Assembly: GCA_011051655.1 (NCBI GenBank)
Contig: DRKS01000095.1
Span: 1-36,633, forward strand
DNA: 36,633 nucleotides
Origin: Sedimenticola sp.
GTDB taxonomy: Bacteria; Pseudomonadota; Gammaproteobacteria; Chromatiales; Chromatiaceae
Direction: 5' to 3'
Positions 1 through 36,612 of the stretch are shown here, piece by piece (within the stretch, counting starts at the first letter, position 1; every line of letters begins with the position of its first letter). A program made the position numbers and the translations under genes. Below the pieces are notes generated by a model. It saw only the letters and a list, made by a program, of their open reading frames with translations, was not told the origin of the DNA and did not search any database.

Positions 1-123
1 ATGCGGCATGTTGCGCTGAATTTGCTTAAAAAAGACAAAAGCGTGAAGCTCGGTATAAAGAACAAACGATTAAAAGCAGGCTGGGATGAAGGCTATCTGG
101 CTAAACTATTGATGGCAGCCTAA
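1..123 (+). CDS. ISAs1-family transposase, C-terminal fragment (5' end outside window)
   Basis: The last 40 codons of a transposase run to the TAA at 121-123. The translation, with LNLLKKDKSVKLGIKNKR followed by LKAGWDEGYL, is the typical basic C-terminal tail of ISAs1-family (DDE) transposases: a conserved RH.ALN.LK stretch, then K..RL.AGWD..YL. The catalytic residues lie upstream of the window, so intactness cannot be judged. The fragment is more AT-rich than the neighbouring host genes, as expected for a mobile gene. The ATG at position 1 is probably an internal Met. Confidence 0.8.
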   Translation: MRHVALNLLKKDKSVKLGIKNKRLKAGWDEGYLAKLLMAA

Positions 124-142
124 ATTTCGTGCGTTTGCCCTG
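1..142 (+). mobile_element. Right end of an ISAs1-family insertion sequence
   Basis: The window opens inside an insertion sequence. The transposase C-terminus (1-123) is followed directly by a terminal sequence whose reverse complement begins CAGGGCAAACGCACG. This resembles ISAs1-family inverted-repeat ends as I remember them. The boundary at 142/143 is also fixed independently, because the reading frame of the integrase remnant on the other strand stops matching its family exactly there. The left end lies outside the window, so the target duplication cannot be checked. Confidence 0.75.
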
Positions 143-334
143 GGTGAGGAAGCGTTCGACTTCCGGGGCGCCCATTTCTTTGGGGTGCCTGACGCCGTGA
201 AAGAGGATGAAGCGCTTGACCCACTGGAGGTAGGCCCGCTCGGTCCTGATGCTGTAGTGCTTGCGCCGGATGGTGCCGCGCACCCGGGCGAGCAGCCTTG
301 AGTTCCCTACGATGTTGTCTGTGGTGGTTTCCAT
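101..334 (-). pseudogene. Integron-type tyrosine integrase, N-terminal remnant cut by the insertion sequence
   Basis: Translation starts at ATG 334 (reading leftward), preceded by AAAGGA at good spacing. The first 64 residues match the N-terminal SAM-like, core-binding domain of integron integrases: IRRKHYSIRTERAYLQWVKR, then FILFHG.RHP.EMGA.EVE.FLT. After Thr64 the frame crosses the insertion-sequence end at 142/143. The last 13 codons (QGKRTKFRLPSIV) come from the insertion sequence itself, so the open frame is a 77-residue chimera. The catalytic domain (R..K..H.R..H..Y) is absent, so the product cannot recombine DNA. The gene points away from the repeat array at 464-1008, which is the polarity an integron integrase has towards its cassette array. 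Confidence 0.85.
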
Positions 335-463
335 CGCCCAATCCTTTGCTTCCGTTGGCGCTCGGGCATTTTTATGCCGGATTTGTGTTTGGGGCAATAT
401 GGCAAATATGGCTTTGGGGGTCAAGATACGGGGCGGGGGCGTCAAGGATGTCCTGTTTTTGAA

Positions 464-979
464 TTCAAATCCCCCTCGGTCCCCCTTTGCGAAAGGGGGA
501 GGGTTGGTTGGTGCGTGTCTGGTGGTTGGAATGATGCTTTGTGTCTGGATTCAAATCCCCCTCGGTCCCCCTTTGCGAAAGGGGGAGGATTGGTTGGTGC
601 GTGTTCGGTGGTTGGAATGACGCTTTGCGTCTGGATTCAAATCCCCCTCAATCCCCCTTTGCGAAAGGGGGAGGGTTGGTTGGCGCGTGTCCGGTGGTTG
701 GGGTGATGCTTTGTGTCTGGATTCAAATCCCCCTCAATCCCTCTTTGCGAAAGGGGGAGGGTTGGTTGGCGCGTGTCCGGTGGTTGGAATGAGGCTTTGT
801 GTTTGGATTTAAATCCCCCTCGGTCCCCCTTTGCGAAAGGGGGAGGGTTGGTTGGTGCGTGTCTGGTGGTTGGAATGAGGCTTTGTGTTTGGATTTAAAT
901 CCCCCTCGGTCCCCCTTTGCCAAAGGGGGAAGGTTGGTGGCTGCATTTTGGCAAAGGAGGAGGGTTGGGGGCTGTACTT
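464..979. repeat. 86-bp tandem repeat array, six units
   Basis: Six head-to-tail units start at 464, 550, 636, 722, 808 and 894, with an exact 86-bp spacing throughout. Each unit begins with TTCAAATCCCCCT (TTTAAAT in units 5-6). It continues into the hairpin CCCCCTTTGCGAAAGGGGG (8-bp stem) and then a G/T-rich half with GGGTTGGTTGGTG and GGTGGTTGG. Units 1-5 differ at only a few positions; unit 6 diverges after about 935. The 86-bp unit is not a multiple of three and all frames are shadows, so I see no gene here. No integron attC core (GTTRRRY or RYYYAAC) is present in the unit. The hairpin segment resembles dispersed palindromic repeats known from many proteobacteria. Confidence 0.95.
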
Positions 980-1008
980 TGGCAAAGGGGGAAGGTTGGT
1001 GACCGTGG
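916..1008. repeat. Three 31-bp tandem units at the end of the 86-bp array
   Basis: From unit 6 onward the pattern changes to a 31-bp period. TTTGCCAAAGGGGGAAGG (916), TTTGGCAAAGGAGGAGGG (947) and TTTGGCAAAGGGGGAAGG (978) are each followed by a short GTTGG/CTG-rich tail. The units look like a shortened derivative of the hairpin plus G-rich part of the 86-bp unit. Confidence 0.85.
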
Positions 1009-1067
1009 GGAAGGCGTGATGGGTCTGTGGGTTTCGGCCGGCTGGGGAAAACGGCCCGGGGTGATAA

Positions 1068-1083
1068 TGTTGTTGCAACAACA
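1068..1083. promoter_or_regulatory. Perfect 16-bp palindrome, likely operator of the MarR-type regulator
   Basis: TGTTGTTGCAACAACA is a perfect inverted repeat centred 34 bp upstream of the regulator start. MarR-family proteins usually bind such 16-20 bp palindromes and repress their own operon. A second partial copy of the half-site (CAGTTGTT) follows at 1083-1090. The assignment as operator is inferred from position and symmetry. Confidence 0.6.
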
Positions 1084-1109
1084 GTTGTTCTGGCATTTAA
1101 TTAGCCATT

Positions 1110-1541
1110 ATGCCTTATCGTATCGAGGAGTCTCCGGGGTTTCCGCTGTACCGCGTCAATATGCGCCTGCGGGCGCTGGGGACGCAGCTTCTGCGTCCTT
1201 ATGGGTTGACGCCGGAGCAGTTCGCCGTGCTGGCTACTTTGTGCAACCGGGACGGCATGAGCCAGCGGGAGCTGGCGGACCTTTTGGTCAAGGACCGGCC
1301 CAATATGACGCGCATATTGGACAAGTTGCAGCATAAGGGGCTGGTGGAGCGCAGGTCTCATCCCCAGGACCGGCGTATCTGCCAGGTCTATGCCACTGCC
1401 GCCGGGCAGGATCTGGTGGCGCGCCTGGCGCCCGTGGTGCTGGAGGCGCGGGAGAGGATGTTCGGCGCCCTGTCCGGGAGGGAGAAGGCCACCCTGCGCC
1501 GTCTGTTGGAAAAACTGTTCAGATCGCTGGAGGGGTTATGA
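1110..1541 (+). CDS. MarR-family transcriptional regulator
   Basis: This 143-residue protein has the size and layout of MarR regulators. An N-terminal dimerisation helix is followed by a winged helix-turn-helix at about 50-100 (LTPEQFAVLATL, MSQRELADLLVKDRPNMTRI, then LVERRSHPQDRR, where the D-R pair in the wing is the family hallmark) and a C-terminal helix pair. It most likely represses the two efflux genes that follow: its stop overlaps the adaptor start (ATGA at 1538-1541), so the three genes form one operon. No clear Shine-Dalgarno precedes ATG 1110. The palindrome at 1068-1083 is the probable binding site. The ligand is unknown; MarR proteins beside RND pumps usually sense the exported drug or a phenolic compound. 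Confidence 0.9.
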   Translation: MPYRIEESPGFPLYRVNMRLRALGTQLLRPYGLTPEQFAVLATLCNRDGMSQRELADLLVKDRPNMTRILDKLQHKGLVERRSHPQDRRICQVYATAAGQDLVARLAPVVLEARERMFGALSGREKATLRRLLEKLFRSLEGL

Positions 1542-2581
1542 AGCGGCGCCTGCTTCTGTTCATGCTGTTGTTCGCGCCCGCCGTGCAGGCCCAGGAGCCG
1601 CCGCCGGCCCGGGTGGTCACCGCCCTGGTGGAGGAGCGGGAGCTGAGCCCCGCCGCCCGCATGGTGGGGCTGTTGGGTTTTTGGCGGGTCTCCGAGGTGG
1701 CCGGCGAGGTGGAGGGGCTGATTGTCACCCATAACTTCGATACCGGGACGATGCTGAAGAAGGGGGAGGTGCTGGCGGAGCTGGATACGGAGCTGCTGCG
1801 CAAGGATATCGAGGCCGTGAATTCCCAGATCGCCGAGGCCGGGGCGGAGGTGGAGAAGCTGGCCCTGGAGGTGAGCCGCCTGGCGCCCCTCAAGCGCGCC
1901 CAGGCGGCCAGCCGCAGCGCCTATGACGAGGCCTTCTACTCCCACAAGGCCCTGGTGAAGCGCAGGGACACCCTTGAGCGGCAGCGGGAGCGCCTGCAGT
2001 TGCTGTTGAAAAAGAGCCGCGTGCGGGCGCCCTTCGACGGCATTGTGCTGGAGAAGAAGAAGGAGCTGGGGGACTGGCTGGGCAGGGGCGAGCCCCTGGC
2101 GCGGCTGGGCGCGGTGGATGCGGTCCAGGTGGTCGTGCCGGTTTCCGAGTCCCTGTTGCCCTTCCAGCATGCGGGCCATGAGTTCGACCTGTTCGTGCCC
2201 GCCCTGGGGCGCAGCCTCAAGGGCAGGCTGCGGGGGGTGGAGCCTTTCGCCGAGGTGCGGTCCAAGTCGGTCTATCTGAAGATCGGGCTGCCCTATGAAG
2301 CGGGCATGATCGAGAACCTCTCGGTGGAGGTGGAGGTGCCCACGGCCGATCCCCGGCGGCTGCGCCTGATTCCCCGCGGGGCGCTGTTGCAGAGCCCGGG
2401 CGCCGATATGGTCTACACCGTCGCGGAGGGCAAGGCCGTGCCCTTGCCGGTCCATATCGTCGCCCGCACCGGTGAGTTCATCGCCGTGGACGATGCGGGC
2501 GTCAGCGCCGGGATGGCCGTGGTGGTCGATGGTAACGACCGCCTGCGGCCGGGCCAGGCGGTTCAAGTGATCGACCAGTAA
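1538..2581 (+). CDS. RND efflux periplasmic adaptor (membrane fusion protein)
   Basis: This 347-residue protein begins with a signal peptide (KRRLLLFMLLFAPAVQAQ) and would act in the periplasm, linking the RND permease to an outer-membrane channel. A split biotinyl/lipoyl-like domain is visible as GLIVTHNFDTGTMLKKGEVL before and VRAPFDGIVLEKKKELGDWL after a heptad-rich helical hairpin (about residues 90-160). A beta-barrel domain follows (VVVPVSESLLPF onward), then a C-terminal membrane-proximal part (IPRGALLQSPGADMVYTV). It is slightly shorter than AcrA-type adaptors, and its helical hairpin is short. It overlaps the MarR gene by 4 bp. No outer-membrane TolC partner is encoded in the window. 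Confidence 0.9.
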   Translation: MKRRLLLFMLLFAPAVQAQEPPPARVVTALVEERELSPAARMVGLLGFWRVSEVAGEVEGLIVTHNFDTGTMLKKGEVLAELDTELLRKDIEAVNSQIAEAGAEVEKLALEVSRLAPLKRAQAASRSAYDEAFYSHKALVKRRDTLERQRERLQLLLKKSRVRAPFDGIVLEKKKELGDWLGRGEPLARLGAVDAVQVVVPVSESLLPFQHAGHEFDLFVPALGRSLKGRLRGVEPFAEVRSKSVYLKIGLPYEAGMIENLSVEVEVPTADPRRLRLIPRGALLQSPGADMVYTVAEGKAVPLPVHIVARTGEFIAVDDAGVSAGMAVVVDGNDRLRPGQAVQVIDQ

Positions 2582-2582
2582 A

Positions 2583-2642
2583 GTTGACGGTTTACGGAAA
2601 AACAACCAGATGACTTTTGTTTCCGCCGTCAACCGTAAACCG
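2583..2642. repeat. Heptamer inverted repeat between adaptor and permease
   Basis: The left arm GTTGACGGTTTACGG (2583-2597) consists of heptads GTTGACG and GTTTACG. The right arm CCGTCAACCGTAAACCG (2626-2642) is the inverse heptads CGTCAAC and CGTAAAC. The arms can pair in two registers offset by 7 bp around a 28-nt spacer. The element fills almost the whole gap and ends 5 bp before the permease ATG at 2648. Confidence 0.8.
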
Positions 2643-2647
2643 ATTCA

Positions 2648-5600
2648 ATGATCCGGCTTTCCATCCGCCAGCCCGTTTCCACTTTTTCCGGGGTCATCCT
2701 GGTGGTGCTGTTCGGCCTGCTGGGTCTCTACCGGCTGCCGGTGCAGCTTACGCCGGATGTGGAGGCGCCCACCATCTCGGTGAGAACCGTCTGGATCGGC
2801 TCTTCGCCCTATGAGATAGAGAAGGAGATCGTCGAGCGCCAGGAGGAGGTGCTGAAATCCATCATGGGGCTGCAGAAAATGGAGTCTTCCTCCCAGAACG
2901 GCTTTTGCGAAATCACCCTGACCTTCAAGGTGGGGGCCGACCTGGAGTCGGCCATGACCCGGGTGGCCAACAAGCTCAATGAGGTCAAGCGCTACCCGGA
3001 GAACGCCGACAAGCCGGTGATCAGCGCCGCCGGCGGCGAGAGTTCGCCGGTGATCTGGACCATGCTGAAGATGCGCGAGGGGGACCTGGAGCGCATCAAG
3101 ACCTACCGCACCTTTTTCGAAAACGAGGTGCGCCATATCCTGGAGCGGGTCCCCGGCGTGGGTTCCCTGTTCGTCTTCGGCGGCACGGAGAAGCGGCTGG
3201 AGGTGGTGGTGGATCCGGTGCGGATGGCCGCCCGCGGGCTTACCATGGAGAGGGTGGCCGGGCGGCTCAACAGCGCCAACGCCAACATCTCCGCCGGTGT
3301 GCTGGGGGTGGGCAAGCGCAACTACCGGGTGCGCACCGTCAGCGAGTTCCAGTCGGTGGCGGAGCCGGGAGGGGTGCTGCTCGAGGACGACGGGGTGCAC
3401 CGGGTCTACCTGGCCGATGTGGCCGAGACCCGCATCGGCTACTACCCCAACGCCGCCCCCGTTCTGCACAACGGCGTGCCCATGATCGTCGTCGGGGTGC
3501 GCAAGGAGGCGGGGGCCAATGTGCTGGATCTCACCGCGCGCATGCGAAAGGTCGTGCGGGAACTCAATGAGGGCCTGCTGAAGGATAACGGCCTCTATAT
3601 CGACTGGGTGCACGACCAGACCGGCTATATCAACACCGCCATCGACACGGTCAAGATCAATCTGCTGCTGGGCGGGCTGCTGGCGGTGGGGGTGCTGCTG
3701 CTGTTCCTGCGCTCGGTCAGCTCCACCGCCACCGTGGCCATCGCCATTCCCATCTCGGTGGTGGGCACCTTTTTATTCATGTATCTCTTCGGCCGCAACA
3801 TCAACGTGGTCTCCCTGGCCGGCATCTCCTTCGCCGTGGGCATGCTGGTGGACAACGCCATCGTGGTGCTGGAGAACATCGACCGTCACCGGCGCCTGGG
3901 CAAGGATCCCTACCACGCCTCCTACGACGGCGCCCGGGAGGTCTGGGGGGCGGTGCTGGCCTCCACCGTGACCACGGTGGCGGTGTTCCTGCCGGTGATC
4001 TTCATCCAGGAGGAGGCGGGCCAGTTGTTCCGCGACATCGCCATCGCCATCAGCTTCTCCATCATGATCTCCCTGCTGGTGTCGATCTCTGTCATCCCGG
4101 CGGTGACCCGCCAGTTCTACGCCCTGGGCCGCAAGGGCGCCAGGACCCAGGCGCCGGGGGAGGGCAATCCCGCCGTGCGGCTGATCATGGCCTGCTCCCG
4201 CCTGACCCTGAAAAACGCCGTCACCCGCCTGGGCACGGTGGCCCTGTTCACCGCCGCCTCGGTGATGACGGTGCAGGCCCTGTTGCCCAAGGCCGAATAC
4301 CTGCCCCAGGGCAACCGCAACCTGATTATCAATATTCTCGTGCCGCCCCCCGGCCTGTCCGATGACAAGCGCCGGGAGATGGGCCGCTACATCATGGACG
4401 AGCTGGAGCCCTACCGGCTGGAGGACGGCCGCGACGGCGTGCCCCGGATCGAGAACCTGTTCTATGTCTCCTCGGACCGCTTCACCCTGTTCGGCGGGAC
4501 CTCCGAGCATGTCACCGAGGCCCGCCGCATGATGCCCCTGTTCAGCCGGGTGATGAACGCCATCCCAGGCGTGTTCGGCGTCTCCATCCAGCGGGGCATC
4601 TTCGAGTCCGCCATCGGGCGGGGGCGCACCGTGGACGTCAATGTCTCGGGGGAGGACTATCCCACCATCGTCGGCGCGGCCCGGCTGCTCTATGCCGAGC
4701 TGGCCCGGGCCATCCCCGGCGCCCAGATCCGTCCGGTCCCCTCCCTGGAGATCGGCTACCCGGAGGCCAATCTGAGGCCGGACCGGGAAAAGGTACTGGC
4801 CAACGGCCTGTCGGAGCAGGCCCTGGGCATGATCGTGGACGTGCTCATGGACGGCCGCAAGGTGGGCGAGTACAAGCCCGAGGGCAGCAAGATCATGGAC
4901 ATGGTGCTGACCGCCGGGGAGGGCCGCATCCGCACCCCCGAGGACCTGCTGGACGGCCTGGTCGCCACGCCCTTCGGGGAGCTGGTGCGGGTGGGGGACC
5001 TGGCGCGGCTGGAGTACACCCAGGGCATGACCCAGGTGGATCACCTGGAGCGCAAGCGCAACGTGCGCCTGGAGGTGACCCCGCCCCCGGATTTCGCCCT
5101 GCAACAGGCCCTGGAGGCGGTCAACGAGGAGCTGGTGCCCAGGCTGGCGGCGGCCGGCAGGCTGGATGGCGTGAACGTGCACGTGGGCGGCAATGCGGAC
5201 AAGCTCACCGAGACCCGCCTGGCCCTGCAATGGAATTTCCTGCTGGCGGTGGTCATCACCTACCTGCTGCTCTCCGCCCTGTTCGGCAACTATCTCTATC
5301 CCCTGATCATCCTGCTCAGCGTGCCCCTGGCGGCGGCGGGGGGGTTCGCCGGCCTGCGCCTGGTCAACCTGCTGATCGCCCCCCAGCCCTTCGATATCCT
5401 GGTGATGCTCGGCTTCATCATCCTGGTGGGCACCGTGGTCAACAACGCCATCCTCATCGTCCACCAGGCCCTCAACAACGTGCGCTACGAGGGAATCGAG
5501 GGGCTGGAGGCCATCCTGCAATCGGTGCGCACCCGCATCCGCCCCATCTTCATGTCGGCCACCACCTCCCTGTTCGGCCTGTTGCCGCTGGTGCTGGCCA

Positions 5601-5740
5601 CCGGCTCCGGCTCCGAACTCTACCGGGGACTGGGTTCGGTGATCCTGGGGGGGCTGGCGGTCTCCACCGTGCTGACCCTGTTCGTGGTGCCGGCCCTGCT
5701 GGCGTTTTTGATCGGCTATGAAAAGCCGCGGGAGTCCTGA
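2648..5740 (+). CDS. RND-family efflux permease (HAE-type), inner membrane
   Basis: At 1030 residues this is a full-length RND permease, a trimeric inner-membrane antiporter that exports substrates with the adaptor encoded upstream. It has the expected architecture: TM1 near residues 10-30, a large periplasmic loop, a TM2-6 block (about 340-480), a second large loop, and TM8-12 (about 855-1025). TM4 reads GMLVDNAIVVLENIDR (Asp402, Asn403) and TM10 reads VVNNAILIVHQ (Asn932-Asn933). Compared with AcrB, one Asp of the proton-relay pair and the TM10 Lys are therefore Asn. This pattern occurs in other RND subgroups, so it is not proof of inactivity. There is no good ribosome binding site: the region before ATG 2648 is the heptamer inverted repeat. 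The substrate is unknown. Confidence 0.92.
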   Translation: MIRLSIRQPVSTFSGVILVVLFGLLGLYRLPVQLTPDVEAPTISVRTVWIGSSPYEIEKEIVERQEEVLKSIMGLQKMESSSQNGFCEITLTFKVGADLESAMTRVANKLNEVKRYPENADKPVISAAGGESSPVIWTMLKMREGDLERIKTYRTFFENEVRHILERVPGVGSLFVFGGTEKRLEVVVDPVRMAARGLTMERVAGRLNSANANISAGVLGVGKRNYRVRTVSEFQSVAEPGGVLLEDDGVHRVYLADVAETRIGYYPNAAPVLHNGVPMIVVGVRKEAGANVLDLTARMRKVVRELNEGLLKDNGLYIDWVHDQTGYINTAIDTVKINLLLGGLLAVGVLLLFLRSVSSTATVAIAIPISVVGTFLFMYLFGRNINVVSLAGISFAVGMLVDNAIVVLENIDRHRRLGKDPYHASYDGAREVWGAVLASTVTTVAVFLPVIFIQEEAGQLFRDIAIAISFSIMISLLVSISVIPAVTRQFYALGRKGARTQAPGEGNPAVRLIMACSRLTLKNAVTRLGTVALFTAASVMTVQALLPKAEYLPQGNRNLIINILVPPPGLSDDKRREMGRYIMDELEPYRLEDGRDGVPRIENLFYVSSDRFTLFGGTSEHVTEARRMMPLFSRVMNAIPGVFGVSIQRGIFESAIGRGRTVDVNVSGEDYPTIVGAARLLYAELARAIPGAQIRPVPSLEIGYPEANLRPDREKVLANGLSEQALGMIVDVLMDGRKVGEYKPEGSKIMDMVLTAGEGRIRTPEDLLDGLVATPFGELVRVGDLARLEYTQGMTQVDHLERKRNVRLEVTPPPDFALQQALEAVNEELVPRLAAAGRLDGVNVHVGGNADKLTETRLALQWNFLLAVVITYLLLSALFGNYLYPLIILLSVPLAAAGGFAGLRLVNLLIAPQPFDILVMLGFIILVGTVVNNAILIVHQALNNVRYEGIEGLEAILQSVRTRIRPIFMSATTSLFGLLPLVLATGSGSELYRGLGSVILGGLAVSTVLTLFVVPALLAFLIGYEKPRES

Positions 5741-8855: not shown

Positions 8856-9524
8856 ATGAGGGGAGATAGGATCAGGCGCATGGCGCTGTTGGCGCTGTTG
8901 CTCGGGTCAGCGGCCTGGGTGGCGGCCCACCGCGGCCAGTTCGATATGGAACTGCTGGAATCCTGGGTAAGGGGCACCGGCCCCCTGGGGCCCCTGGTGT
9001 TCATGCTGGTTGCGGCCGCCGCCACCGTCCTGCTGGTGCCGGCCTCCCTGTTCACCCTGGCCGGCGGGGTGTTGTTCGGCCCGGTGCTGGGGACCCTGTA
9101 TACCCTGTTCGGGGCCTGCGCCGGCGCGGCCCTGGCCTTTCTGATCGCCCGTTATATCGCCTCCGACTGGATTGTGCGCAAGAGCCATGGCCGGTTCGGG
9201 CGGCTCATCGAGGGGGTGGAGGAGGAGGGATGGCGTTTCGTCGCCTTTGTCCGGCTGGTGCCAATTTTCCCGTTCTTCCTGCTCAATTACGCCCTGGGGC
9301 TGACCCGGATCGGGTTTTCCCCCTATATCATCGCAACCTTCGTTTGCACGGTTCCGGGGGTGGTGGCCCTGACCTATCTTGGCTATGTGGGGCGCGAGGC
9401 CCTGGGGGGCGGGGAGGCGCTGATCCAGAAATCACTGATCGCCCTCGGCCTGCTGGCGCTGACGGCCTTTTTGCCCCGCTTCGCCAAGCGGCTGCATGAT
9501 AAAGGACTGAGGACTGAGGACTGA
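8856..9524 (+). CDS. TVP38/TMEM64 (DedA-like, VTT domain) membrane protein
   Basis: This 222-residue inner-membrane protein has the VTT-domain core. GGVLFGPVLGTLYTLFGACA is followed by a helix into LAFLIARYIA, and the second half-site is FVRLVPIFPFFLLNYALGLT. A hydrophobic first helix and a last helix (about 195-210) frame this core. Related proteins act in lipid flipping or envelope homeostasis; the specific role here is unknown. The start at ATG 8856 has GGAG at 8848-8851; ATG 8880 is a weaker alternative. The last codons (KGLRTED) and the TGA stop are made by the heptamer repeat at 9504-9549, so the C-terminal tail is repeat-derived. Confidence 0.88.
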   Translation: MRGDRIRRMALLALLLGSAAWVAAHRGQFDMELLESWVRGTGPLGPLVFMLVAAAATVLLVPASLFTLAGGVLFGPVLGTLYTLFGACAGAALAFLIARYIASDWIVRKSHGRFGRLIEGVEEEGWRFVAFVRLVPIFPFFLLNYALGLTRIGFSPYIIATFVCTVPGVVALTYLGYVGREALGGGEALIQKSLIALGLLALTAFLPRFAKRLHDKGLRTED

Positions 9525-9549
9525 AAACTGAAAACTGAAAACTGAAAAC
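9504..9549 (+). repeat. Heptamer tandem repeat forming the end of the TVP38 gene
   Basis: Three copies of GGACTGA (9504-9524) run straight into three copies of AAACTGA (9525-9545) plus AAAC. The 7-bp phase is unbroken. Codons for the last residues and the TGA stop at 9522-9524 lie inside the array. Gain or loss of a unit would change the C-terminal reading frame. Confidence 0.95.
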
Positions 9550-27242: not shown

Positions 27243-27305
27243 CGGTTTGCGGTTGGCCCATAAGGGGATTTCGCCGTCAACCGTGAAGCGTCAACCGTGA
27301 ACCGT
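27243..27305. repeat. Heptamer inverted repeat containing a start codon
   Basis: The left arm CGGTTTGCGGTTGG (27243-27256) is two inverted heptads. The right arm from 27274 is CCGTCAA, CCGTGAA, GCGTCAA, CCGTGAA, CCGT in perfect 7-bp phase. The GTG start of the next gene (27297) is the GTG of the last CCGTGAA unit. It has the same layout and nearly the same heptads as the element at 2583-2642. Confidence 0.85.
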
Positions 27306-36393: not shown

Positions 36394-36612
36394 TTAGCGA
36401 TTAGCGATTAGCGATTAGCGGTTAGCGGTTAGCTGATCAGTATACAGAAACCATGTGCGAGATTTGTTCGCGCCTAAAGGCGCTCCTACAAAATAACCTG
36501 CAACTTCATTTGGTTGTAGGAGCGTCTTTAGGCGCGAAGAGAAAAGCACTACTTCTGGACAAATACCTGCCAACCGCCAATTGCTAATCGCTAAAAGCTA
36601 ACCGCTAAAAAC
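36394..36612. repeat. Heptamer inverted arrays between flgE and flgF, enclosing a REP doublet
   Basis: The left array is TTAGCGA x3, TTAGCGG x2 and TTAGC (36394-36433). The right array is CAACCGC, CAATTGC, TAATCGC, TAAAAGC, TAACCGC, TAAAAAC (36571-36612), in unbroken 7-bp phase and inverted relative to the left. The REP doublet at 36467-36538 lies between them. The right array ends 15 bp before the flgF start. Confidence 0.9.
36467..36538. repeat. REP-like palindromic doublet inside the flgE-flgF gap
   Basis: Two 25-bp inverted copies (36467-36491 and 36514-36538) differ by one base and enclose 22 bp. Each copy carries the GTAGGAGCG core and ends in CGCGAA. This is the same REP type as before bioF, but here the GTAGGAG ends face inward. 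Confidence 0.9.

Follow-up and report, generated by a model that had tools for sequence, protein, structure and literature searches.

A tandem array beside an integron integrase remnant is very probably a local amplification of a dispersed REP-like element

Tandem repeats that adjoin an integron integrase gene raise the question of whether they are part of an integron or merely its neighbors. We analyzed a 36,633-nucleotide stretch of Sedimenticola sp. DNA (the window) in which an 86-bp tandem array (463–938, + strand) lies between a minus-strand intI-like N-terminus and a plus-strand MarR gene. Relative to intI, the array is upstream, on the attI side, ~128 bp from the start of the gene, and its end is ~110 bp upstream of marR (1110–1541, + strand). 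marR opens a set of RND efflux genes that includes an adaptor (1538–2581) and a permease (2648–5740). A sequence-only reading had described six exact units beside an integron-type integrase – and had considered a non-canonical recombination substrate, an expansion of a REP-like element, and a transcribed structured RNA as explanations.

The array itself is well supported. TRF called a period of 86, with 5.5 copies, 93% matches, no indels, and a score of 791, a periodicity that is far beyond chance. The spacing never varies, but the units are inexact copies of one another: units 1–5 differ pairwise at 3–9 of 86 bases. The count of six also needs qualification: the sixth unit follows the consensus for ~52 bp (893–944) and then departs from it, giving way to a degenerate tail (915–1001, + strand; TRF period 31 bp, 2.8 copies, CTTTGGCAAAGGGGGAAGGTTGGTGGCTGCA) that overlaps the array end and derives from the 3' half of the palindromic element described below. 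Units 3 and 4 share AA at columns 16–17 and C at 50, units 4 and 5 share G at 73 and T at 83, T at column 4 is common to units 5 and 6, and only three positions separate units 1 and 5. The variants shared by neighbors and the near-identity of units 1 and 5 thus fit local duplication with some reshuffling. The array lies close to the end of its contig, in a fragmented assembly, and copy number is known from this one genome, the only representative of its genus compared.

Each unit consists of a ~36-bp palindromic element, AAATCCCCCTCnnTCCCCCTTTnnnAAAGGGGGAGG, and ~50 bp of spacer. The element combines a hairpin with a third C-run, and the hairpin reported by the sequence-only reading was recovered as a 9-bp stem with a 3-nt loop (TCCCCCTTT-GCG-AAAGGGGGA) that carries one mismatch in unit 4. 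The first copy, AAATCCCCCTCGGTCCCCCTTTGCGAAAGGGGGAGG, occupies 467–502 (+ strand), and later copies start at 553, 639, 725, 811, and 897 on the same strand, in 86-bp steps. Variable columns number 3 of 36 in the element and 10 of 50 in the spacer – a small difference over few sites, but a possible hint of constraint.

The element is not confined to the array. Allowing up to two mismatches, we identified seven further copies in the host genome, mostly between ORFs (contigs C6, C13, C17, C50, C67, and C91), along with more degenerate forms on C21, C61, and C84. These dispersed copies occur singly or close-set and lack the array spacer. At the same threshold, 24 of 274 genomes of the host's class contained the element, with counts ranging from 1 to 97, while a reversed-pattern control produced zero matches in every one of the 274. 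Many copies in another genome (G031) form inverted pairs ~64 bp apart. A phage or plasmid origin of the array was considered and rejected, as viral contigs yielded no tandem match and plasmids no match. No description of the element sequence was found among the papers listed by literature searches.

Other repeats were observed in the same genome. Heptanucleotide microsatellites of differing sequence – (ACTGAAA)n, (TTAGCGA)n, (TTAGTTA)n, and (CTGACCA)n – recur in host intergenic regions (window 9503–9549, 36394–36433, and 36572–36610; locus L084, 712–771 and 1154–1294). Inverted or repeated TTGACGG/TTTACGG-type motifs at window positions 2581–2640 and 27274–27305 (TTGACGGTTTACGG ... CCGTCAACCGTAAACC; CCGTCAACCGTGAA twice) seem to form a further intergenic repeat, phased at 7 or 14 bp. 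Near the contig end (window ~36465–36545), an inverted repeat, CGCGCCTAAAGGCGCTCCTACAA ... TTGTAGGAGCGTCTTTAGGCGCG, forms a pair of REP-like palindromes of another type.

We then considered the integrase gene. The intI-like sequence (143–336, - strand) comprises ~64 codons from the ATG and matches PF13495 (E 8e-15) and TIGR02249 (57 bits), in the latter case over positions 1–52 of 315. The description of an integron-type integrase thus applies to these first 52 model positions only, the remainder being cut off by an insertion sequence. Positions 1–142 (+ strand) represent the 3' end of an ISAs1-family element, with the last 40 transposase codons, a stop at 121–123, and the terminal end TAAATTTCGTGCGTTTGCCCTG. 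Annotated ISAs1 family transposases on plasmids match the transposase tail at 55–70% identity. The same end opens two other contigs of the host genome (C23 and C98), and similarity among the three stops right after ~142. A TIGR02249 search of the assembly (E <= 1e-20) recovered no further part of intI; the sole other match in the host genome, over positions 237–303, is a tyrosine recombinase on contig C94 with a 304-residue frame that looks like an XerC/D-type protein. Because only the first 52 positions are present, an insertion sequence ends at ~142, and no other part was found in the genome, the gene beside the array is a remnant, cut by the ISAs1-family element. At 95.8% completeness, however, the genome may lack a contig that carries the rest of intI. 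The functional intI that defines an integron is, in any case, not what the window encodes.

If the array were a non-canonical integron substrate, IntI would excise or insert the 86-bp units as it does cassettes. The position on the attI side and the hairpin carried by each unit on a folded strand favor this interpretation, and the array resembles a cassette array in being tandem, hairpin-forming, and next to an intI (here a remnant). It differs, however, in its fixed 86-bp unit, its lack of cassette ORFs, and the truncation of the integrase, of which the rest was not found in the genome. It also differs in its lack of attC cores: a scan of window positions 1–1110 on both strands found no RYYYAAC...GTTRRRY pairs, as the sequence-only reading had stated, with the scan using a strict consensus rather than the published covariance model. 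A simple consensus scan is unsuited to attI sites, which vary too much.

Related integrase loci likewise speak against a recombination substrate. We compared 30 related intI loci with 89.5 kb of upstream sequence in total, which reached 500 bp or more at 24 of them and 1000 bp or more at 22. None had a comparable tandem array upstream, where the only tandem repeats were short ones unlike the 86-bp unit. The palindrome was absent from all 16 of the related loci scanned for it. A convincing attC-like site was found at 1 of 16 (L079) by a strict core-pair scan that may miss sites, which suggests that canonical cassettes are not abundant beside the gene at most of these loci either. One locus in G031 (L094, 3048–3526, contig C36) has a 108-bp-period, 4.4-copy array ~300–770 bp downstream of an intact intI. 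This second case of repeats close to an intI weighs against coincidence, though it is on the other side and has another unit, built on a different palindrome (GTCATTCCTGCCGGGATGCAGGAATC).

Arrays of the same element do occur with no integrase nearby, which also counts against a recombination substrate. A second genome of the host's class (G297) contains a 5.7-copy, 135-bp-period array in which the element is combined with a second, inverted palindrome. Its neighbors are contractile-injection-system genes with tail-tube, CIS_tube, and Pvc16_N domains, and none of the seven flanking proteins matched a recombinase family. A Nitrospinota MAG (L086) contains a 4.4-copy, 46-bp array between two HD-domain response regulators, and G031 contains a 2.9-copy, 142-bp-period array on contig C137, with its integrase matches on other contigs. 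The G297 and L086 arrays share the palindromic core and head-to-tail arrangement of the host array but differ in spacer, period, and genomic neighbors, and lack an integrase. The sequence-only reading had proposed that the association would be due to chance if similar arrays were scattered without any integrase or if integrase relatives had ordinary attC arrays. The former was observed in other genomes (G297, G031, and L086), whereas copies outside the array in the host genome were seen singly or close-set; the latter was not, given the single convincing attC-like site. Taken together, the attC core scan, the incompleteness of the integrase, and the related loci lead us to reject an integron cassette array, and we consider recombination of the units by IntI extremely improbable.

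Two further explanations have little to recommend them. A transcribed structured RNA, or a set of transcription terminators between the divergent genes, is favored by the nine-bp GC-rich stem, repeated six times with a hairpin predicted on both strands. However, there is no Rfam match, RNA folding of the units does not outperform dinucleotide shuffles (z +1.2 to -0.8), and the array is upstream of both flanking genes. An intrinsic terminator was rejected, as terminator-like T tracts are absent from the array. We therefore view an RNA or terminator role as highly unlikely. A putative selected regulatory or architectural element for the MarR-RND efflux genes – acting through nucleoid protein or gyrase binding, or through promoter insulation – is similarly hard to credit. 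REP clusters bind nucleoid proteins and gyrase in enterobacteria, and the array ends close to marR, but the element is also present at unrelated sites elsewhere and the unit spacer varies freely.

We regard the element as an unclassified REP-like repeat. With a perfect 9-bp stem and 3-nt loop within ~36 bp, it belongs among 20–40 bp palindromes, it is dispersed and mainly extragenic, and it forms inverted pairs and clusters (tandem clusters in the host genome, G031, G297, and L086). In these respects it resembles REP/BIME clusters (PMC3733652, PMC3116915), which are likewise short, dispersed, mostly intergenic palindromes that occur singly, in inverted pairs (the BIME arrangement, seen here in G031 and G297), and in tandem clusters carrying flanking DNA. 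Tandem reiteration of a REP plus flanking DNA is documented, and ordered tandem REP arrays are known from P. fluorescens SBW25 (PMC3116915) – a form that the host array shares. The element differs from the two described REP superfamilies, which have a GTAG or CGTC terminal tag (PMC3733652), in that neither tag is present by the conserved palindrome. It also differs in its lack of a detected RAYT-type Y1 transposase, with no PF01797 (Y1_Tnp) match in the host genome or in G232, the genome with 97 copies. Y1 genes were identified in four of six element-bearing genomes searched, but no element copy lay within the ~1.5 kb flanks of their 15 Y1 loci. The flanking of a RAYT by the repeat, typical of GTAG REPs and REPtrons, was thus not observed, and RAYT mobilization was rejected. 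An element without a Y1 association is not unprecedented, since CGTC repeats also lack an association with a transposase (PMC3733652).

These results suggest that the array is very probably a local tandem amplification of a dispersed REP-like element, and that its adjacency to the integrase remnant is coincidental. The direct basis for this explanation, which the sequence-only reading had listed among its candidates, is that the element is repeated elsewhere in the host and in other genomes (including in arrays without an integrase), that each unit is the element plus spacer, and that some neighboring units share variants. A copy of the element in the intI–marR intergenic region would have been amplified together with ~50 bp of neighboring DNA, presumably by replication slippage or unequal recombination assisted by the hairpin. 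This explanation requires no specific function for the array, which may nonetheless have passive effects on DNA structure or on transcription in the region separating the divergent genes.

A loose end of some interest is the spread of a tagless palindrome family in genomes without a detected Y1 transposase. The element could constitute a REP-like class outside GTAG/CGTC that spreads across distant lineages (the host's class and Nitrospinota) without Y1 and so implies an uncharacterized mobilizing enzyme, a possibility that we regard as doubtful. For the locus itself, a position beside intI is weak evidence on its own: what is left of the gene is a fragment, and the repeat belongs to a dispersed family. 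The array is an ordinary kind of thing with an accidental neighbor, and recognizing it as such removes the tempting false lead of a non-attC integron array.
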